Of a DNA stretch of 24,553 nucleotides, positions 858 to 19,315 are shown piece after piece (the stretch's first letter is position 1; the number at the start of each line of letters is the position of its first letter). Position numbers and translations under genes: made by a program. The stretch is from an uncultured Actinomycetes bacterium (GTDB lineage: Bacteria > Actinomycetota > Thermoleophilia > Solirubrobacterales > 70-9), in contig CAMPIP010000012.1 in the NCBI GenBank assembly GCA_946886425.1, positions 1-24,553 on the forward strand, given 5' to 3'. The notes under the pieces are model-generated. The model was not told where the DNA came from. It saw nothing but the letters and a program-made list of their open reading frames with translations, and made no database searches.

Positions 858-1261
858 ATGAGTCGCTTGCGGGTGGTAGCCGCCTTTGCGGTGGTCCTCG
901 CAGCTAGCGCCGCGGTTCCGGTCCTTGCCGCCGAATCGTCCGAGAGCGTTGCGGCGCCGGCCCCGCGGGCGCCCGCGGATTTCGACCCCTCCAAGCTCCC
1001 CGGGCCCGAGGAAAATCCCGGGCGGCAATTGTTCCTAATCACCAGATTCGCTGGGGTTGGGGGAGATAGCGGCGCCCCCGTGTGGAGCCTAGGCTTCAGA
1101 GATCGATCGGCTTGTTGAGCGGTGGCCCGAACATCCCGGGAAAAGTCAAGGATTGGGTTACCCCGCTGCTCTTGCCGAGGGGTCATGATTCCGAGAAGGT
1201 GTCAGGAATACTGCATGCACCAGGGATGGGGTCTCTTCAACTGGCCGTTCCAGGGTCATAA
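858..1261 (+). pseudogene. Frameshifted remnant of a secreted trypsin-like (GDSGAPVW) protein
   Basis: ATG 858 starts a good signal peptide (hydrophobic stretch about residues 5-19, cut after VLA). A short Pro-rich stretch follows, then GGDSGAPVW, which resembles the serine-nucleophile motif of S1 proteases. That frame ends in an unrelated tail at 1118. If the frame is shifted near 1083-1090, reading continues as EPRLQRSIGLLSGGP, then DWVTPLLLPRG and LHAPGMGSLQLAV, to a TAA at 1259-1261. This is what one expects after GDSGAPVW in actinobacterial S1-like secreted proteins. Only about 50 residues separate the signal peptide from the Ser motif, so the His and Asp part of a protease is absent. 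I infer a gene that lost its middle and then one base (or gained two). A sequencing error could explain the frameshift but not the missing middle. Confidence 0.6.
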
Positions 1262-1275
1262 GTGGTGGTAGCTGC

Positions 1276-1755
1276 ATGAGAACGCAAGCAGAAGGAATTC
1301 GAACCAGTGTGTCCTCAATTGCTGTTGCCATAGTGGGATTGATATGGATGAGCGGATGTGCGGCAACTGCCCCAGAGCACGACGCAGGTTCGGGACGGTC
1401 AGTTGGTAAGCCAACGGCCAATGCGATAGAAGGCGCAGGAGTTGTCAAGCCGATCCGTTGGGGTGTGATGAGCCTCATGGGTGAAAGGGTCAGGATTGGA
1501 GCTCTAGTCCCCTATTGTGAAGACGGGAGGCAAAGGCCACAGATTGAGCGAATCGAGCATCGCCGCCGTGAATCCCGGCTCGTCCTGACGATGTTTGTAA
1601 GGTTCTTTAATAGGTCAACTTCGGGGTCCGGGGGATGCATGTTTTTGCAGGTCGGCGTATCCCGCTGGGTTAGAGTGGGTGCGCCGGCGGGAGAGTTCGA
1701 TCTCTATGACGGAAGCACCTCTCCGCCAAGTCGTAGGCGCGTGTATCAACGCTGA
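1276..1755 (+). CDS. Putative lipoprotein, Cys/DGSxxPP-tail family member 1
   Basis: The product is 159 aa and matches no family known to me. The N-terminus is a lipoprotein-like signal: a hydrophobic stretch at residues 13-24 followed by MSGC with Cys28 as the possible lipidated residue, so it is probably anchored to the outside of the membrane. The mature part has Cys81 in YCEDGRQRPQI, Cys121 in GGCMFLQVG, and a C-terminal YDGSTSPPSRRR from Tyr144. The same pattern recurs in the proteins at 2874-3365 and 3347-3664: first Cys, 38-40 residues, second Cys, 23 residues, then (Y/F)DGSxxPP. It is therefore one of three paralogs in this patch. The gene is noticeably AT-richer than the chromosome around it. 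The next gene starts 13 bases downstream, which suggests co-transcription. The start codon has only a weak upstream purine tract. Confidence 0.6.
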   Translation: MRTQAEGIRTSVSSIAVAIVGLIWMSGCAATAPEHDAGSGRSVGKPTANAIEGAGVVKPIRWGVMSLMGERVRIGALVPYCEDGRQRPQIERIEHRRRESRLVLTMFVRFFNRSTSGSGGCMFLQVGVSRWVRVGAPAGEFDLYDGSTSPPSRRRVYQR

Positions 1756-1768
1756 TATAGGCGGGGAG

Positions 1769-2638
1769 ATGAACCGGAAACTGCAGCGACTTGCAACTGC
1801 GTTCACCGTGTTAGCGTGCGGCGGCTGGACCCTCGGCCCGCTGCCGGCGGCCGAGGGTGCCGAGTTCATTTGCGGGGATCGTGTTCTCACGGACTACGCG
1901 CAGCCCCTCGACGGATTGCCCGCCAACCGACTTCCCGGCGAGAGCTTGTCCTTCGCTCCTCGAGGCGTGGAACTGAGGGCGGGACGGTCGGTCGTCGTGG
2001 ACGGGGAACCGATCGCCTATACCCTCGCGCTCAACCGCCCGGATTTTGGGAACGGCCCTCGGCCTGCCGAGCTCGATTGGGCGCTCGCCTTGAGGCTCGA
2101 TGCCATTGATCGTCGAGGGCGGCCAACGGCCGAGGCCGAGCGGAGGCGTTGGCGAATAGGGAATCTCAGCAGTTCAGAACTCCAGTATGAGCTTCAAGCG
2201 GATCCGGGTCTCTACCGCATCTCAGTAAGGATCCGAAAACTCGGCGGTCCGGTGCTTGCCCGCTATCGGCAGTTCGTCCGGATATTGCCCTTGCGATGGG
2301 ATCTGAGCGTCTCGATCCGCGGTGGCGGGAGCTTCCGACCCGGTGACACCGTGGCGGCCCGAATCGAGAACCGCGGGACGCACGCGGTCGTGCTGCCCAC
2401 GGGATCAGGTCTCAAGCTTGAACGACTCGAGGGTGGGACGTGGACCGCAATCGTGCCCGAGCAGTCTCCCAGCGCGATGTTCGAAGACCCCAGATTCCTC
2501 GCCGGTGGCCGAGCGTCGGGGTGTTCGTTCCTTGTGATCCCGCCCGACTCCACCCCCGGTCAATTCCGATTCAGTGTCGACTGGCAGATCGGTGCGGGCA
2601 AGCCCCGCGCCGTATTCAGGTCGTTCTTCGTCTCGTAG
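1769..2638 (+). CDS. Secreted protein with an Ig-like C-terminal region, function unknown
   Basis: I place the start at ATG 1769, directly after GGCGGGGAG. The frame is open further upstream, but this start gives a clean signal peptide (MNRKLQRLATAFTVLACGG, cut near AEGA) and sits 13 bases after the preceding stop. The 289-aa product has a Cys in FICGDRVL near the mature N-terminus and beta-rich sequence throughout. A C-terminal stretch (SFRPGDTVAARIENRGT, then LKLERLEGGTWTAI) resembles bacterial Ig-like/CARDB-type sandwiches that handle exported, non-enzymatic roles. No catalytic motif is visible. It probably shares a transcript with the small lipoprotein gene upstream. The function is unknown. 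An extracellular location is well supported by the signal peptide. Confidence 0.7.
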   Translation: MNRKLQRLATAFTVLACGGWTLGPLPAAEGAEFICGDRVLTDYAQPLDGLPANRLPGESLSFAPRGVELRAGRSVVVDGEPIAYTLALNRPDFGNGPRPAELDWALALRLDAIDRRGRPTAEAERRRWRIGNLSSSELQYELQADPGLYRISVRIRKLGGPVLARYRQFVRILPLRWDLSVSIRGGGSFRPGDTVAARIENRGTHAVVLPTGSGLKLERLEGGTWTAIVPEQSPSAMFEDPRFLAGGRASGCSFLVIPPDSTPGQFRFSVDWQIGAGKPRAVFRSFFVS

Positions 2639-2681
2639 TCGCCGGAGCCGAGAGCCGGTGCCAGATCAGCAAGGGGTAACG

Positions 2682-2864
2682 TTGAGTAACTCACCAGAGC
2701 AGACAACTTGGGCAACGCGGATCCCGCTGGTATTCCTCGCTCTTGCAGTAGCCGTGCTTCTTTCCGGCTGGATCACGAGTTCCGCGCGAGCCGCCATCTA
2801 CTGGGTGAACTTCGACGGGATCGGGCGGGCGAACCTCGACGGGAGCAACGCCGAACCGGTTTAG
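2682..2864 (+). pseudogene. Truncated 5' copy of the YWTD beta-propeller gene
   Basis: TTG 2682, preceded by AAGGGG, opens a 60-codon frame encoding the same signal peptide and first propeller strand (IYWVNFDGIGRANLDGSNAE) as the intact gene at 3661. It then stops at TAG 2862-2864. The DNA from 2692 to 2858 matches 3668-3834 with one mismatch (C2826 against A3802), and the homology ends just before the stop. The product would be a signal peptide with a quarter of a domain, so it cannot fold as a propeller. Near-identity implies a recent duplication or active gene conversion. The TAG is followed at once by GGAGGGGG, which serves as the ribosome binding site of the next gene, so this stub may now act mainly as a leader for 2874-3365. 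Confidence 0.8.
2692..2858 (+). repeat. 167-bp direct repeat, copy 1
   Basis: This copy matches 3668-3834 with a single mismatch over 167 bases. The two copies are 976 bases apart, start to start. The left boundary falls at CACCAGAGC and the right at GCCGAACCG, with unrelated sequence on either side. Confidence 0.95.
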
Positions 2865-2873
2865 GAGGGGGCA

Positions 2874-3365
2874 ATGAGCAAAGAGATCCGACTGCTATCA
2901 GTAACTCCCGTTGCGGTGGTTCTCGTTCTAGCGATAGCCGTGGAGTTCGCTTCAGGGATAGGTCGAGAGGGGATCACCTCGGACGACCGCTATCGGGGGC
3001 GAGAGGCGGTTCGAGAAGGTTTCCATCCAAGGTACTACTGGGAGAAGACATCGAAGCCGATGCAGTGGGTTCTCGCTCGCCCGCCAGTTGGGGGTCGAAT
3101 AGAGATTGCCGCTTCTCCCAGGATCTGCATAGGGCGGCCCAGGCCGAAATTCGGCTCTATACGGATTGAGGGCTCCCGGCGCGCAGTCGTTGTCACCGCG
3201 GAAGTGAGCACGTACCGCCATCCAGCGAAGTTTGAAACCTGCATGGGAGTAGGAGGGGGAATTTCCAAGGAACTAACCTTGCCTAGCCCCGTAGGGCATC
3301 GTGTGCTCTATGACGGCAGTGTGGATCCACCGTCTCGACGTTGGCCATGGCGTCCTCCTCGCTGA
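2874..3365 (+). CDS. Small secreted or membrane-anchored protein, Cys/DGSxxPP-tail family member 2
   Basis: The product is 163 aa and matches no family known to me. The start ATG has an excellent ribosome binding site (GGAGGGGG, 3 bases upstream). Residues 8-27 form one hydrophobic segment (VTPVAVVLVLAIAVEF) that could be a signal anchor or an uncleaved signal peptide. The exported part carries Cys85 in ICIGRPRPKF, Cys123 in ETCMGVGGG and the tail YDGSVDPPSRRW from Tyr146. These line up with the proteins at 1276-1755 and 3347-3664, including the 23-residue step from the second Cys to the Tyr. The conserved pair of Cys may form a disulfide outside the cell (inference). The gene sits inside the 976-bp unit bounded by the two propeller 5' copies, so it could be lost by recombination between them. 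Confidence 0.6.
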   Translation: MSKEIRLLSVTPVAVVLVLAIAVEFASGIGREGITSDDRYRGREAVREGFHPRYYWEKTSKPMQWVLARPPVGGRIEIAASPRICIGRPRPKFGSIRIEGSRRAVVVTAEVSTYRHPAKFETCMGVGGGISKELTLPSPVGHRVLYDGSVDPPSRRWPWRPPR

Positions 3366-3664
3366 TTACTTCGTGGAGGGCGCGGTCCAGGTCTCTCACG
3401 GCGCCACAGCTTGGTCTGCGATGGTGCGTAGGTGCGCACAAGCCTCGTATCGCCGCGGTTCACACGCGCGAAACCAGGAAGGCTGTCGCGATCACTGTGG
3501 TTCGGGTCTCCTGTCGGACTCCTTCAAAGTATGAAGTCTGTCCGAGTCTCGAAGTCGGCCGCGAAGAGACGATAAGACTCGCGACAAGCCTCGGGTCAAG
3601 GCCCATATTCGACGGGAGCACCAGGCCGCCGACTCAGAGATGGCCGTCCGAAGCTCATAATTGA
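3347..3664 (+). pseudogene. N-terminally truncated member 3 of the Cys/DGSxxPP-tail family
   Basis: The frame runs from ATG 3347 (or TTG 3341) to TGA 3662-3664, 105 aa. From about residue 24 it aligns with the other two family members: Cys27 in RWCVGAHKPRI, Cys65 in YEVCPSLEVG, FDGSTRPPTQRW from Phe88, with the same spacings (38 and 23). The first 23 residues are Ser/Arg-rich, show no signal peptide, and overlap the end of the upstream gene in another frame. I infer that the original 5' end was lost when this copy was joined to its neighbour. If translated, the product would stay in the cytoplasm. The stop TGA overlaps the TTG start of the propeller gene (TTGA), so translation through this remnant could still feed ribosomes to that gene. 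It could also be a functional short gene. Confidence 0.5.
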
Positions 3665-4944
3665 CGGCACCAGAGCAGACAACTTGGGCAACGCGGATCC
3701 CGCTGGTATTCCTCGCTCTTGCAGTAGCCGTGCTTCTTTCCGGCTGGATCACGAGTTCCGCGCGAGCCGCCATCTACTGGGTGAACTTCGACGGGATCGG
3801 GAGGGCGAACCTCGACGGGAGCAACGCCGAACCGACTTTCCTCTCGGGGCATGAACGCCACTTCATGGCCTGCAGCGTCGCCGTCAGCGACAAGCACATC
3901 TACTGGGGTGACTACCAGAACAATTTGATCGGGCGCGCGAATCTCGACGGGACGGAACAGGTCGCATTCGTCAATAACGTGACCGAACCGTGCGCGCTTG
4001 CATTGGATGGGGAGCATCTATTCTGGATCAGTCGGAGCTCCCAGTCCGTCGGCCGGGTCAACCTCGACGGAACGGAACCCATACCGCAGCTGATCCAGGG
4101 TCAGGAATGGGAACGGCTCTGTGGTCTGGCAGTCAGCGGCGGATACGTCTACTACTCGTCGAGCTACTACGACAGGATCGGACGGGCGACAAGGGACGGG
4201 AAAGCGGTCGAACCGGAATTCATCGGTAAGGCCCGCAGCGCCTGCGGGTTGGCGATCAGCGGGAGCCAGATCTTTTGGGCTAGCTACGAGGGCAGCATCG
4301 GCAGAGCCAATCTCGACGGATCGGAATTCCAGCCCGCGCTGATCAGCGGCCTGGACGACGCCTGCGCGGTCGCTGCCAATAGCTCCCAGATCTTCTTCGC
4401 CGAATACATGAGCACTACCGGGCTCGGCGTCAGCAGCGCCAATCTCGATGGCACGTCTTTGCGCAGAGGGTTCATACCCGGAACGCTCCAGCAGTGTTCC
4501 GTCGCGGTGGATTCGGTCCAGGTCCCAGCGATTACGCCACCACCGCCGCGGCCGATCCGCTGCGAGGTGGCGAACGTCAGAAGGAACCTGCGGACGGGGG
4601 TCGCGTTCGTCCTGGTGTACACGGAGGGCGGGAGCAAGCTCGCCGTTACGAACAGGAGCCTGCGGTCACGCGACCTCAGGGAACAGCAACCGTGGAACTT
4701 CAGTCGACTCCTGAAAGTGTGGCCGGGTGGCAAGGGGAGGACCGGAAGGCGCCTGCGCCAGCGACTGCGCCGGACCGGCCGAGCCGAGCTCAAGCTGCAC
4801 ATCGACTGCGCCACCGCCGACCCGACGCTCGTCTCCAGCTCGACCGAAGTGCCGCTCACCCTGCGGCAGACCCGGAAGCCACTTCTGAGGCGCCACCACT
4901 CGAGGACCCGCCACCGAGATGCGGTGCTGGGCGGAAGCCCGTAG
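3661..4944 (+). CDS. Secreted YWTD/LDLR class B-type beta-propeller protein
   Basis: TTG 3661 is taken as the start because it is the only usual start codon in frame before the signal peptide, and the truncated copy also begins with a TTG near this point. Residues 1-36 are a signal peptide (LVFLALAVAVLLSG, cut after SARA). Residues 37 to about 295 contain six to seven repeats of roughly 40 residues built on a YW/FW strand followed by IGRANLDGT (for example IYWGDYQNNLIGRANLDGT). This is the pattern of LDLR class B/YWTD beta-propellers, which act as extracellular binding scaffolds. A Pro-rich hinge (PAITPPPPRP) leads to an Arg-rich C-terminal module whose NLRTGVAFVLV start resembles the C-terminal module of the propeller gene at 17804. 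Some repeats have drifted (VYYSS, IFFAE). The gene ends 7 bases from the convergent glutamate decarboxylase gene. The ligand is unknown. Confidence 0.8.
   Translation: MTAPEQTTWATRIPLVFLALAVAVLLSGWITSSARAAIYWVNFDGIGRANLDGSNAEPTFLSGHERHFMACSVAVSDKHIYWGDYQNNLIGRANLDGTEQVAFVNNVTEPCALALDGEHLFWISRSSQSVGRVNLDGTEPIPQLIQGQEWERLCGLAVSGGYVYYSSSYYDRIGRATRDGKAVEPEFIGKARSACGLAISGSQIFWASYEGSIGRANLDGSEFQPALISGLDDACAVAANSSQIFFAEYMSTTGLGVSSANLDGTSLRRGFIPGTLQQCSVAVDSVQVPAITPPPPRPIRCEVANVRRNLRTGVAFVLVYTEGGSKLAVTNRSLRSRDLREQQPWNFSRLLKVWPGGKGRTGRRLRQRLRRTGRAELKLHIDCATADPTLVSSSTEVPLTLRQTRKPLLRRHHSRTRHRDAVLGGSP
3668..3834 (+). repeat. 167-bp direct repeat, copy 2
   Basis: This is the second copy of the segment at 2692-2858. 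It forms codons 4-58 of the intact propeller gene and covers the signal peptide and the first YW strand. Confidence 0.95.
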
Positions 4945-9045: not shown

Positions 9046-9150
9046 CGCTCTCCTCCTAGGAGATAGTGCGGATAGTGACGATCCATTTACCCTGTGCGGG
9101 TCCGCCGGTTACGCCTCGTCCGCGGGGCGGCCCAGCTACCGTCCCCGCTG

Positions 9151-10770
9151 GTGCCCGACTACGGACACGAGCTCGAGTTCGGCGTCTTCCCGACCCCGTT
9201 GGCGGAGCGGTCGGCGGTCGTGGTGCGGCTGGCGGAGCTGGCCGAGGAGGCGGGACTGGACCTGGTCAGCTTCCAGGATCATCCGTACCAGTCGCGCTTC
9301 CTCGACACCTGGACGTTGTTGAGCTTCGTCGCCGCGAAGACGAGCCGGGTGAGGCTGGCGCCGAACGTCCTCAACCTGCCGCTGCGGCCGCCGGCGGTGG
9401 TGGCGCGGGCGGCGGCGAGCCTCGACCTGTTGAGCGGCGGCCGGGTCGAGCTGGGACTCGGTGCCGGCGCCTTCTGGGACGCGATCGAGGCGATGGGAGG
9501 GAGGCGCCTCTCGCCGGGGCGGAGCGTCGAGGCGCTGGAGGAGGCGATCGCGGTGATGCGCGAGCTCTGGGACGTCGAGCAGCGCGGCGGGGTGCGGCGC
9601 GAGGGCGAGCACTACCCGCTGCGAGGCGCCGCCCGCGGGCCGGCGCCGGCGCACCGGATCGGCTTCTGGATCGGCGCCTACAAGCCGCGGATGCTGCGCC
9701 TGACCGGGCGGCTCGGCGACGGCTGGCTGCCCAGCGTCCCGTACCTGGCCGCTACGGACCTTCCCGCCGCCAACGCGACGATCGACGGGGCGGCCACGGC
9801 GGCGGGTCGCGAGCCGGCGGCGGTGCGGCGGCTGCTCAACGTCAGCGGCGCCTACTCGGACGGGTCGCCCGGGCCGCTCGACGGCCCTGTCTCGCGGCAG
9901 GTCGAGGAGCTGGCGCGGCTGGCGCTCGAGGAGGGCATCGGGACCTTCATCGCCGCCGTCGACGATCCCGGCCAGATCGAGGAATTCGCCCGCGAGATCG
10001 CGCCGGCGGTCCGCGAGGCGGTCGCGAGCGGGCGGGCGAAGGCGCCGGCAGAGCGCGAGCGGTCGGTCGCGGTGGGGAGCGGCGAGGAGCCGGGCGCGGC
10101 TTCGCCCGCGAGCGCCTCCGCGGAGAGCGCCTCGGCCGACGCCGCCGGCCGGACCCAGTACGAGCGGCTCGGCGTCACCCCGACGCCCGACGACGGCAAG
10201 CGCCTGACCGCGCCGGCCTGGGACGAGTCGACGCGGCCGCACCGGCAGCCGAGCGGCCCCGACGTCACCTACACCGGGCAGGGCCGCGAGGTCGGCCAGC
10301 ACCTTGTCGACGTCCACGACATGCTGCGCCGCGAGCTGGCCGAGCTGCGCGACGTGGTCGGCCAGGTCCGCGACGGCCGCCTCAGCGCCGGCGACGCCCG
10401 CTCGGCCCTGAACGAGATGGCGCTGCGCCAGAACGACTGGACCCTGGGTGCCTTCTGCAGCCGCTACTGCCGCGTCGTCGCCCAGCACCACTCGCTCGAG
10501 GACGACTCGATCTTCCCGCACCTGCGCCGCCAGGACGGCGACCTCGAGCCGGTGATCGACCGGCTCGCCGAGGAGCACCTGGTCATCCACGACGCGATCG
10601 AGGCCGTCGACAAGGCGCTCGTCGAGCACATGAACCACCCCGACGACTCCGCTCCCCTGCAGGAGGCGATCGACCGCCTCACCGACACCCTGCTCTCGCA
10701 CCTCTCCTACGAGGAGGTCGAGCTGGTCGAGCCGCTCGCCCGGCTCGGCTTCTACCCGGGCCAGCTCTGA
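9151..10770 (+). CDS. LLM-class (F420/flavin) oxidoreductase fused to a hemerythrin domain
   Basis: GTG 9151 (PDYGHELEFGVF) is chosen because this is where family members usually begin. The frame is open to 9094 but adds unlikely sequence. Neither start has a clear ribosome binding site. Residues 1 to about 300 are a luciferase-like TIM barrel (DLVSFQDHPYQSRFLDTW, RLAPNVLNLPLRPPAVVARA, LSGGRVELGLGAGAFWDAIE), a family using F420 or FMN for hydride transfer. A low-complexity Ala/Ser/Glu linker follows (about 305-340), then a hemerythrin four-helix domain (about 380-539) with likely di-iron ligands: His389 (and His384), His446/His447 with Glu450, His457, His476/His480, His517 and Glu521. Hemerythrin domains bind O2 or NO or sense oxygen and iron. 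The fusion suggests that flavin/F420 chemistry is coupled to O2 or NO handling (inference). The gene is monocistronic. Confidence 0.88.
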   Translation: MPDYGHELEFGVFPTPLAERSAVVVRLAELAEEAGLDLVSFQDHPYQSRFLDTWTLLSFVAAKTSRVRLAPNVLNLPLRPPAVVARAAASLDLLSGGRVELGLGAGAFWDAIEAMGGRRLSPGRSVEALEEAIAVMRELWDVEQRGGVRREGEHYPLRGAARGPAPAHRIGFWIGAYKPRMLRLTGRLGDGWLPSVPYLAATDLPAANATIDGAATAAGREPAAVRRLLNVSGAYSDGSPGPLDGPVSRQVEELARLALEEGIGTFIAAVDDPGQIEEFAREIAPAVREAVASGRAKAPAERERSVAVGSGEEPGAASPASASAESASADAAGRTQYERLGVTPTPDDGKRLTAPAWDESTRPHRQPSGPDVTYTGQGREVGQHLVDVHDMLRRELAELRDVVGQVRDGRLSAGDARSALNEMALRQNDWTLGAFCSRYCRVVAQHHSLEDDSIFPHLRRQDGDLEPVIDRLAEEHLVIHDAIEAVDKALVEHMNHPDDSAPLQEAIDRLTDTLLSHLSYEEVELVEPLARLGFYPGQL

Positions 10771-12407: not shown

Positions 12408-13262
12408 CTAGCGCTCGCAGCCGCGGATGGAGTCGTGGCCCTGGCCGCCGCGGCAGCGGTCGATGCCGCGCCCGCCCCGCAGCCGATCGGCGCCGCGCCC
12501 GCCCTTCAGCGTGTCGTTGCCACGGGAGCCGCGGAGGACATCGGGACCGCCCTGGCCGAGGACGCGGTCGCGACCCGGGCCGGCGAATACCCGGTCCGCC
12601 GCGGTCCCGGCGCGGACGCGGTCGCTTCCGACCCCGGCGCAGACCAGGTCGCGCCCCGCCCGCGAGAGGATCCGGTCGCTGCCGCCGAGGGCGACGATCA
12701 CGTCGGGGCCGGAGGTGCCGAAGAGGATGTCGTCGCCGGGGCTGCCGCTGACGGTCGCCGGCCGGCCCCGGCAGGTGGGGGCGGCGAGCACGGTGGTCGC
12801 GGCGACCGCGCGGTTGTCGCCGCGGGACCGGTCGCGCTGGTCGGCCCGGACGTTCACGTGGCTACGGACAGTGCCGGTGCGGCGCGGCGTGACGACGATC
12901 GTGATCGTCGCCTGGGTGCCCCCGTAGTTGACGCCGACGGGATTCAGGGTGCCGAGCGGGCAGATCAGCTTGCCGGCCTGGGTGGCGCAGGCACTGGGCG
13001 GGCCGGTCACCGAGACCAGGCCGACGCTGCTCGGCAGTCGGACCACCACGGTGACCCCGGTGGCCGGATCGGGGCCGCGGTTCTCGACCCCGATCGTGTA
13101 GGTCAGCTGCCCGTTCAACGCCACCGGGTCGGGGCTGTCGGACATGACGATCCGCAGGTCCGAGGAGCCCGGGCGCGCCGCGGAGCCCGCCCCGGCCAGC
13201 ACCAGCCCGGCGACCAGCGCGGCACCGAGCAGGCAAAGCAGACATCCCTTCCTGGTTCCCAC
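12408..13262 (-). CDS. Secreted protein with a DUF11 domain and RTX-type repeats
   Basis: The start is GTG 13262, with no usual start codon in frame just upstream. The 284-aa product has a signal peptide (residues 1-29, cut near GSAA). A DUF11-type Ig-like domain spans about 34-160 (SDSPDPVALNGQLTYTIGVE, NRGPDPATGVTVVV). The C-terminal region, about 172-284, holds around a dozen degenerate nonapeptide repeats of the hemolysin-type calcium-binding class (GSPGDDILFG, GSRGNDTLKG, GGRGADRLRG). Canonical repeats are GGxGxDxUx, folding into a Ca-binding beta-roll. Many here have Arg in place of the second Gly or Asp and may bind Ca weakly. Proteins of this make-up are secreted or surface-bound; no enzyme domain is seen. 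The gene is divergent from the M23 hydrolase gene. Confidence 0.85.
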   Translation of the reverse strand: MGTRKGCLLCLLGAALVAGLVLAGAGSAARPGSSDLRIVMSDSPDPVALNGQLTYTIGVENRGPDPATGVTVVVRLPSSVGLVSVTGPPSACATQAGKLICPLGTLNPVGVNYGGTQATITIVVTPRRTGTVRSHVNVRADQRDRSRGDNRAVAATTVLAAPTCRGRPATVSGSPGDDILFGTSGPDVIVALGGSDRILSRAGRDLVCAGVGSDRVRAGTAADRVFAGPGRDRVLGQGGPDVLRGSRGNDTLKGGRGADRLRGGRGIDRCRGGQGHDSIRGCER

Positions 13263-14964: not shown

Positions 14965-16236
14965 CTATTCGTTGTGTTCTTCGAAGTCGTGGGCATTGAG
15001 CCCGAACCGCACCGCCCGCTCGAAGATGCCGTCGGAAATCCTTTCCGCCGTGTCCCGCGAGTGTTCGGGCCCCACCGAGAGGCCCAGGGCCGCGTCCGCC
15101 ACCCGCCGAACGAACGGGAGCATGCGCTGCCCCAGGAAGCGAGGGGCGAACCCCACCTCGGCGGCGAGCTTCGCCCAGGCCGAGTTGTCCACCTCCTCGA
15201 GGTGAGTCGCGCTGGCAATCGACATCGCCAGCCGGGTGGTCAGCTCGCCGTAGACCGCGGTCGAGAGCAGGTCGTAGAAGGGCGCCAGGCTCGGGGCGGG
15301 GGAGTCGTAGAGCAGCGAGTGGTTCTTCCCGTGGGCATCGCAGTTGCCGATCAGGATGTTGAAGACGAGCGCCAGCCAGAGCTGCTGGCGGTCCCGCGCC
15401 GGCGCCACCGACACCTCGTCGATCAAGCGCATCGACTCGCGCACGCCCGGACCGCCTTCGTGCTGGTACTTCTCCACGTACAGCTTGCCCAGCGCCTGGC
15501 AGAAGTCCTCCTGGTGCAGGCGGCGGATCGGGTCTTGGGTGAGGTCGCGGTCGTAGCGGCTGACGATCAGGTACGGCAGTCCCGAAATCGTCTCGGCGCG
15601 CCGCACCTGGGCGACGTTGAGGCCGACCTCCTCGGCGAGGCGCATGCAGAAGAACTCGTTCGCGACCAGGCCGGGGAAGCGCTCGGGCTCTGGCTTGAGG
15701 ATGTGCGTGGTGGGGTGGGCCGAGCCGTGGGGTAGCGCAAAGGCTCCGTCCACCTCGATCGCCGGCAGCTTGCTCTGCGCTCCGGCCAGGGACATCCGCA
15801 CCTCACCCTTGTCGTCGATTCCGAGCGGGCGCAGCGGCAGTCCCCTCAGCAGCTCGTCGAGCCGCTCCGGCGAGAGGGTCTCGAGCTCGTCCGGCTCGGG
15901 CTCGTCTCCCTCCTGGCCGATCGGCAGGAGGGTGACCGCGCCGGCCACGTCGCCGCCGAAGCGCTCCAGCAGCTTGTAGTCGTTGGCGGCCGAGATCCCG
16001 GTTGCCAGCGCGACTTGGGCGCGGACGTCCTCCTCGGGCAGGAGGTTCCCGAAGAAGGCCAGGCAGTCCCGGTGGGGGTAGGCCTCGGTCCGGAGCGGCA
16101 TGTTGACCGAGAGCGGCATCCCCCTGGCCTCCAGGTAGGCGTCGTCGTAGCGGAACTGGAGGTTGCCGTTGTCCTTGCGGAGCAGCTCCCCGGCGCGCTC
16201 GCCGTTCAGGCGGACCTCAAGCGTGGGCGTCGCCAC
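14965..16236 (-). CDS. hipA: HipA-family serine/threonine kinase toxin
   Basis: The 423-aa product is near the size of E. coli HipA (440 aa) and has both domains, HipA N-terminal (about 1-105) and kinase (about 145-410). Key positions are present: MSLAGAQSK, with Ser149 aligned to the autophosphorylated Ser150 of E. coli HipA; HILKPE with Lys181 for ATP; NCDAHGKN with catalytic Asp300 and Lys304/Asn305; and APFYDLLS with the metal-binding Asp322. E. coli HipA phosphorylates glutamyl-tRNA synthetase and stops translation, giving persistence. The same target is likely but unproven here. It starts with GTG and overlaps hipB by 20 bases, the usual antitoxin-first arrangement. All catalytic residues are intact, so the toxin should be active. 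Confidence 0.93.
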   Translation of the reverse strand: MATPTLEVRLNGERAGELLRKDNGNLQFRYDDAYLEARGMPLSVNMPLRTEAYPHRDCLAFFGNLLPEEDVRAQVALATGISAANDYKLLERFGGDVAGAVTLLPIGQEGDEPEPDELETLSPERLDELLRGLPLRPLGIDDKGEVRMSLAGAQSKLPAIEVDGAFALPHGSAHPTTHILKPEPERFPGLVANEFFCMRLAEEVGLNVAQVRRAETISGLPYLIVSRYDRDLTQDPIRRLHQEDFCQALGKLYVEKYQHEGGPGVRESMRLIDEVSVAPARDRQQLWLALVFNILIGNCDAHGKNHSLLYDSPAPSLAPFYDLLSTAVYGELTTRLAMSIASATHLEEVDNSAWAKLAAEVGFAPRFLGQRMLPFVRRVADAALGLSVGPEHSRDTAERISDGIFERAVRFGLNAHDFEEHNE

Positions 16237-17803: not shown

Positions 17804-19315
17804 ATGCGGGCGGAGGCGACCAGTAGAGCGGGGCGACGGGTATGGGCGACAGGGGCGATCCTGGCCCTTTTGGCGATGCTGTTGGCGCTCCCGTCCGCCG
17901 CCGACGCCTACCTGTACTGGGCGACCGGCCCGACCAAAATATCGGTGGGTCGCGCGAATAACGACGGGACGAATATGAAGGCGAGCTTCGTCACCGGCGG
18001 GAATAAACCGTTCGGGGTGGCTGTCGACTCCCAGCACGTCTACTGGACCGACAACGTCAACGACGCGATCGGCCGCGCCAACCTCGACGGCACCGCTGTC
18101 GACCAGGCGTTCATGGCTGTCGACGCACCGGAATACGTCGTGGTCGATGGACAGTTCATCTACTGGACCGCCAATGCCAACCACACGATCGGCCGCGCCA
18201 AACTTGACGGCACGGCCGTCGATCAGAGTTTCATCGTCACGGTGCTGCCGCTCGGAGGGATCGCCATCGACGGCCAGTTCCTCTACTGGGGCAACGGCAA
18301 CGCCGTCGCTAGGGCGAACATCGACGGCACTGACGTAGACGCGGCCTTCATACCCACCTCCAGCGCGGTCAGGGGAGTCGCCGTGGACTCGGGGCATCTT
18401 TACTGGAGTCAGGTAGGCGGGAAGATCGGCCGTGCCAACCGGGACGGGTCCGCTGCCAACCAGAACTTCATCGCCGCCGGGTCCAATATCTGGGGCGTCG
18501 CCGTCGACTCTCGGTTCGTCTACTGGAGCGATTACACCGAAGAACGGATTGGCCGTGCAAACCTCGACGGCACGGGCGTCAACCAGTCGTTCATCCCCGG
18601 CGTCGCTACTCCGGTGGACCTCGAGGTCGACTCGCTGCCGCACGGGAGCGCAACCGCTATCTCCTGCTCACCGCCCTCGCTGGTGTTGCCGAGCACCTCG
18701 ACCTGCACGGCAAACGTCGAGGACAAGGGTCCCTTCACGGCCATGCCAGGACCGACCGCGCCGACCGGCACGGTCGACTTCTCCGTCAACAGCGGCAGCT
18801 TCGCGCCGGCGCCGAGCTGCGCGCTCGTCCCTACCGGCTCGGGCCGGTCCGCATGCCAGGTCACCTTCACGCCGGCCGGCACCGGCGCGGTGGCGATCGG
18901 CGCCAGTTACCAGGGCGACCTTCTCCACGGGCCGAGCAGCGGCCTCGCCGCCCTCACCGTCAATGGGCCGCCGGTCCCAGCGCCGGTGACCGTGGTCCCG
19001 CAACCGTCGAACAGGTTCAAGCGGGCGAAACCGATGCTGAAGCCGAAGAAGGGCATCGCGGTCGTGCCGGTCACGGTTCCCGGCCCCGGCAAACTCATCC
19101 TCACCGGCAAGAAACTCGTCTTCTGCGCAAAACAGGCGAAAAAAGCGGGGCAGAAAGTCAACCTGCTCGCCCTGCCGAAGAAGGGGCTCAAGGAAACGCT
19201 GAAGGAGATCGGCTCGGCCAAAGCCGCCTTCAGGGTGACCTTCATCCCGGTCGGCGGCGAAGCGCGGACCGAGAACGGCTCCGTGACGCTGCGGCTGAAG
19301 CAGCAGCAGCGCTAA
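17804..19315 (+). CDS. Secreted YWTD beta-propeller with Ig-like and C-terminal modules
   Basis: The 503-aa product has a signal peptide (residues 1-35, ILALLAMLLALP, cut after SAADA). About 36-275 comprise six repeats of 39-41 residues built as YW[TS]xxxxxxIGRANLDGT plus VAVDxxxxYW. The YW codons begin near 17911, 18041, 18161, 18284, 18401 and 18521, giving a strikingly regular period of about 120 bases. An Ig-like domain of the Big_3 type follows (about 280-390; PTGTVDFSVNSGSF, GSGRSACQVTFTPAGTG), then a Lys-rich beta module (about 400-503; VPGPGKLILTGKKLVF). The propeller at 3661 has the same first and last modules but lacks the Ig domain. An extracellular binding role is inferred; the ligand is unknown. 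The start is supported by AGGA about 9 bases upstream. Two hairpins follow the stop. Confidence 0.85.
   Translation: MRAEATSRAGRRVWATGAILALLAMLLALPSAADAYLYWATGPTKISVGRANNDGTNMKASFVTGGNKPFGVAVDSQHVYWTDNVNDAIGRANLDGTAVDQAFMAVDAPEYVVVDGQFIYWTANANHTIGRAKLDGTAVDQSFIVTVLPLGGIAIDGQFLYWGNGNAVARANIDGTDVDAAFIPTSSAVRGVAVDSGHLYWSQVGGKIGRANRDGSAANQNFIAAGSNIWGVAVDSRFVYWSDYTEERIGRANLDGTGVNQSFIPGVATPVDLEVDSLPHGSATAISCSPPSLVLPSTSTCTANVEDKGPFTAMPGPTAPTGTVDFSVNSGSFAPAPSCALVPTGSGRSACQVTFTPAGTGAVAIGASYQGDLLHGPSSGLAALTVNGPPVPAPVTVVPQPSNRFKRAKPMLKPKKGIAVVPVTVPGPGKLILTGKKLVFCAKQAKKAGQKVNLLALPKKGLKETLKEIGSAKAAFRVTFIPVGGEARTENGSVTLRLKQQQR

Follow-up and report, generated by a model that had tools for sequence, protein, structure and literature searches.

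A small two-cysteine protein family behind a protease relic in a Solirubrobacterales contig: a possible immunity-type array

Bacterial teneurin-like proteins, with NHL and YD parts, carry variable C-termini, some of which are like small proteases, and immediately downstream of almost all of their open reading frames lies a small gene, which was tested as an immunity protein for M. fibrata (PMC13018210). Polyimmunity loci and proteins were defined in PMC3482391; there, Imm65 is an immunity family with signal peptide and lipobox, and Tox-SerPeptidase appears in the toxin table, while the word "trypsin" has no occurrence in 300,000 of the 357,715 characters of that paper. As far as the titles of the literature and part of the text of these two papers can tell, a trypsin-like tip paired with the protein family considered here was not found in print, and one search of the literature on Solirubrobacter with RHS repeat found no such immunity-type family.

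The locus considered here lies in a stretch of 24,553 nucleotides from an uncultured bacterium of the Solirubrobacterales (contig CAMPIP010000012.1), hereafter the window, and its features are collected in Table 1. Judging from a glutamate decarboxylase with 86% identity, the host of the window stands close to MAGs of this order. As in the polymorphic-toxin immunity and polyimmunity loci described in PMC3482391, a small gene is found directly downstream of a protease tip (in G041) or of its relic (in the window), together with a paralog array in the window, a tandem-domain relative and a probable lipoprotein. Unlike the polymorphic-toxin immunity families, the window family has no Pfam or NCBIfam match above cut-off, neutralisation is only putative and the effector of the window is a relic. 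The giant proteins of G041 and G003 resemble the bacterial teneurin-like proteins of PMC13018210 in their NHL and RHS/YD parts, their differing C-termini and the small gene immediately downstream; unlike those proteins, they have one RHS_repeat stretch each and a conserved linker before the tip. We consider it possible, and tentatively prefer the reading, that the window is a decayed immunity-type array behind a collapsed protease of the kind that tips giant NHL/RHS proteins.

Table 1. Features of the array and its upstream region in the window
Feature	Position	Strand	Basis or remark
Secreted-protein start with signal peptide; possible 5' remnant of a giant (weak)	858..1050	+	Likeness to G041 giant N-terminus
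Frame-broken relic, C-terminal end of a trypsin-like protease tip	1062..1261	+	tblastn and tip profile
Paralog 1 (P0001)	1276..1755	+	Putative lipoprotein; groups with P0006-P0010, P0012-P0014 and P0011 domain 2; 14 nt behind protease relic
Putative secreted protein, weak Big_14-like Ig region	1769..2638	+	Big_14 E 0.028, below cut-off
Truncated copy of propeller gene 5' end, 61 codons with stop	2682..2864	+	Ends just before paralog 2
Direct repeat copy 1	2692..2858	+	167 nt, one mismatch to copy 2
Paralog 2 (P0002)	2874..3365	+	Putative exported protein; most like domain 1 of tandem protein P0011
Paralog 3 (P0003)	3347..3664	+	Truncated and without a visible signal peptide; shares 19 nt with paralog 2 and 4 nt with the start of the propeller gene
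YWTD-type (Ldl_recept_b) propeller gene, last of array by position	3661..4944	+	Ldl_recept_b E 3.9e-11
Direct repeat copy 2, inside intact propeller gene	3668..3834	+	167 nt, one mismatch to copy 1

The three ORFs are present as listed, and the original prediction that they are local paralogs was borne out by pairwise BLASTP (P0002 against P0003, E 1e-16; P0001 against P0002, 3e-10; P0001 against P0003, 1e-9). They have in common two cysteines, RP or KP after the first of them, and a [YF]DGSxxPP tail. The motif at the first cysteine, previously given as C-x(2,3)-G-x(2)-[RK]-P, has to be corrected to C-x(1,2)-G-x2-[RK]-P, with one or two residues from Cys to Gly; the remaining spacing is as claimed in the three ORFs, the second Cys falling 38-40 positions after the first and [YF]DGS 23 positions further. 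Among 18 domains that we chose from several sources, 22 residues intervene between the second Cys and [YF]DGS in 15, 23 in two and 21 in one. The tail motif occurs in three of the 206 stop-to-stop frames of at least 60 aa in the window and in one of 18,167 frames from the other fetched loci over 8 kb, a comparison set in which some loci were fetched as relatives and some overlap; it had no occurrence in 200 codon-block shuffles of 1276-3664.

Inspection by eye gives P0001 a signal peptide and a lipobox-like Cys and P0002 a stretch that could be signal or anchor; P0003 shows neither an export sequence nor the first strands. This agrees with the lipobox, the anchor and the missing N-terminus earlier attributed to the first, second and third protein, and on this reading P0001 and P0002 would be exported. 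An AlphaFold2 model of P0001 places eight strands between residues 56 and 154, with pLDDT of at least 90 for 67 residues and a disordered N-terminus, and the beta domain is thus confidently modelled. Sequence and model together place P0001-P0003, as members that have diverged strongly, in a predicted family of two-cysteine, all-beta domains that has no name.

That no named family was known for these proteins still holds: P0001-P0003 stay below every Pfam and NCBIfam cut-off, with no Pfam row at E <= 1 and a single NCBIfam row (P0001, E 0.051), their relatives likewise match no model at cut-off in these two collections, and none of the four proteins compared with the PADLOC models by E-value was matched. 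A search of P0002 against 5.8 billion proteins returned its near-identical twin only. The profile search proposed with the prediction was run: the three-sequence profile found 7 proteins at E <= 1, and a 15-row profile found 21 at E <= 0.01, a list that overlaps with the former. Proteins from both searches have no precomputed Pfam domain and, where named, are called "hypothetical protein". Close relatives were found in metagenomes, and P0006 is 84% identical to paralog 1. P0011, a putative lipoprotein, has two tandem copies of the domain; its domain 1 is the best match for paralogs 2 (E 3e-22) and 3 (4e-18) and its domain 2 for paralog 1 (1e-22), in outline agreement with a tree of weak support.

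The two cysteines and a C-terminal "PLG.R.l.DG" region define a wider family in P0015-P0019 and P0024-P0027, and distant family-like loci are present in up to 19 of the 232 genomes of Solirubrobacterales at E <= 0.02, the weakest rows (e.g. L130, L135) looking like chance. With a model built from window and metagenome proteins only, 19 family-like rows (E 2e-21 to 0.11), some of which are the same protein twice, outrank every other ORF in a set of 1,991; as the loci had mostly been retrieved with overlapping profiles, this does not count as an independent check. Judged by sequence comparison, the close family is best placed as a divergent branch of a wider unnamed domain family. In G043 (L085:997-2100) an Ig-like-looking region accompanies two tandem family-like domains, with transposase-like ORFs nearby (by eye), and in G208 (L087 / L095) genes for tRNA-Pro and tRNA-Arg flank a distant family-like gene, whose longest frame runs over tRNA-Pro.

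All genes of the array, paralog 1 first and the propeller last, share one strand and either overlap or lie a short gap apart, save near the propeller fragment, and they may be transcribed together; the three paralogs are interrupted by the Ig-like gene and by that fragment. Of the interleaved propeller and Ig-like genes reported before, the propeller is clear and the Ig-like gene is only weakly identified, since its Big_14 match is below cut-off; in a single-pair BLASTP its product matches the Big_14 protein behind a second G041 tip at E 4e-6. Because of the 167-nt direct repeat, the 5' end of the propeller gene is present twice, around P0002 and P0003, and such a repeat would result if a cassette had recombined into the propeller gene. 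Third-position GC is 0.54, 0.57 and 0.64 for the paralogs, 0.73 for the Ig-like gene and 0.80 for the propeller; in eight later genes of the window with Pfam matches it is 0.85-0.96. Of the earlier interpretation, the part that stands is an unnamed family of small proteins, apparently exported, that has local paralogs; the suggestion of one surface system with the propellers found no support, as propeller ORFs of the RANLDG type appeared in none of 15 other loci in a crude motif scan, 13 of these loci having family-like genes and only two the close family. Another propeller gene of the YWTD type is located at 17804-19315; it also matches Big_3_5, but weakly and not up to the cut-off.

In the protease relic upstream of paralog 1, positions 1062-1091 encode GDSGAPVWSL and 1091-1255 continue the same protein in another frame, with a stop at 1259-1261. 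Against the G041 tip (L084:834-1397), tblastn over the first 5,200 bases of the window gave a combined E of 3e-6, and the relic scored 32.0 bits, compared with a maximum of 23.1 in 1,000 shuffles. For a three-row tip profile, which includes L084, the relic was the best match of the whole window (E 0.0037, 9.9 bits; at most 4.7 in 200 shuffles). Unlike trypsin-like peptidases (PF00089), which the G003 tip resembles (Trypsin E 3.2e-5), the relic keeps only the Ser motif, in its GDSGAP part, and the C-terminus, in two frames, and a complete His-Asp-Ser triad in one frame is absent from it. The window has no intact protease, so that the genes of the array may be relics too. Further upstream, the product of the putative secreted-protein start aligns with the G041 giant's N-terminus at 42.6% over 47 residues, and this giant ranks first of 1,991 ORFs against it; the phmmer E is only 0.06, not significant after control, and the collapse of a whole giant in the window is therefore something that we infer.

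In G041 a frame of 2,208 aa begins with a signal-like stretch, continues through NHL, DUF6531 and RHS_repeat and runs into the protease tip, which is continued in another frame. This frame-broken tip has GDSGGP and a weak Pfam Trypsin match (E 0.13), and the end of its gene (to 1400) is overlapped by 8 nt by a family lipoprotein gene (L084:1393-1806). NHL, DUF6531, TEN_NHL and RHS_repeat are all above cut-off in the G041 giant. NHL scores 279.5 bits there and 129.1 bits in G003; for TEN_NHL, whose cut-off is 27.1, G041 exceeds it with 43.7 bits and G003 stays below with 22.8. DUF6531 is above cut-off in both giants and RHS_repeat in G041 only; each giant has a single RHS_repeat stretch, so that a full YD shell is at most putative in either. 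In G003 an unbroken tip ends the NHL/RHS giant, with TAGHC, DAEAIRV and GDSGGP, which we take to be the catalytic triad motifs; the next gene, lipoprotein-like and lacking the family motif, overlaps it. The protein with the second G041 tip runs into a contig end, which leaves just its linker and tip visible, and the Big_14 protein (E 4.6e-11) follows 2 nt on. All three strong tip loci (G041 twice, G003) thus have a short gene directly behind the tip, with signal peptide or lipobox by eye: one family member, one Big_14 and one neither. The family and Big_14-like types are both present behind the window relic, the second being weakly matched. Behind the G041 pair (L091:10213-16119) come a response regulator and an ORF of 1,702 aa whose peptidase domains are of the thermolysin type (M4).

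In the fuller form of the proposed array, for which G041 is the example, the protease would reach the outside on a secreted NHL/RHS scaffold. The lipoprotein from the next gene downstream, held on the membrane of the producing cell, would bind the tip or block it and so might inhibit it and confer immunity. An extracellular protease tip would require its immunity protein outside the membrane, as a lipoprotein may provide, and more kinds of tip would be tolerated thanks to the paralogs and the relative with tandem domains. By analogy, several features of the array resemble polyimmunity loci: same-strand paralogs, short gaps or overlaps, a recent partial duplication, the two-domain P0011 and the lower third-position GC of the paralogs. 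We keep the immunity reading tentative because there are two linked loci only, one of them a relic; a general surface role comes close behind it.

According to this competing explanation, which we regard as a serious possibility ranking after the first, the paralogs belong as ordinary members to a wider family of exported beta domains, whose role at the cell surface would be a general one (adhesion, ligand binding), and the place of the paralogs behind the relic would be incidental. The distant relatives counted above across the order, with their doubtful weakest rows, are consistent with it, as is the occurrence of the domain in tandem beside the Ig-like region of G043. Where the upstream DNA of close-family loci is readable, a tip or tip relic adjoins in two of three (G041 and the window) and not in G042. 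There the close relative is preceded, at a contig start, by what looks like the 3' half of a tRNA (T-arm by eye; the fragment was not called by ARAGORN), and the tip and pre-tip searches across the order gave no hit in G042. The tip and pre-tip profiles, whose three matching loci are those from which they were built, also found none at E <= 0.5 in 20 other family-like context loci; among eight genomes with weaker tip-like matches, the six loci opened had no family neighbour by eye. Against a merely incidental position, however, two divergent close-family genes lie directly behind homologous protease ends, although trypsin-like tips match in only 2 of the 232 genomes of the order. The family domains at these two loci are just 28% identical, so the adjacency to tips is either old or arose twice.

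That the lipoprotein is instead a maturation factor, chaperone or surface anchor of the giant protease seems to us quite improbable. The gene overlap and the probable lipid anchor would fit a dedicated partner of this sort, but three related tips have three kinds of downstream gene, a diversity that suits immunity genes better than it does a conserved chaperone, and the window retains its paralogs without a working tip. We are just as doubtful that the array is non-functional debris, made of duplicated and truncated pieces under no selection. The protease relic, the truncated propeller copy, the truncated paralog 3 and the flat codon-position GC of the paralogs all point in this direction; on the other hand, paralogs 1 and 2 have their full length, inspection by eye shows export signals and a likely ribosome-binding site, and near-identical copies (P0004, 99%; P0005, 98%) are present in other records, which may stem from the same sample or from others.

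The immunity reading can be extended to a broader proposal, which we consider unlikely as it stands: a new class of lipid-anchored protease inhibitors, in which a two-cysteine beta domain, once a general exported domain, would in Solirubrobacterales have become the partner that gives immunity to NHL/RHS (teneurin-like) proteins with a trypsin tip, and arrays and tandem versions would keep pace with changes of tip. If the immunity reading were right, an immunity-type family for an extracellular protease effector would be added in a soil lineage, a simple genetic signature would be available for finding more such pairs, and the locus would illustrate how immunity-type genes can persist and increase in number as their giant effector gene collapses. 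If it were wrong, an unnamed domain family would still be outlined in Solirubrobacterales, with single matches in Patulibacter and Nocardioides.

Other genes of the window include an AlkZ-like DNA glycosylase gene on the minus strand that runs off the window start (2-691), a luciferase-like monooxygenase fused to a hemerythrin domain (9094-10770), a minus-strand gene with DUF11 and RTX-type calcium-binding repeats (12408-13262) and a HipA-like gene with HipA_C and Couple_hipA (14965-16236).
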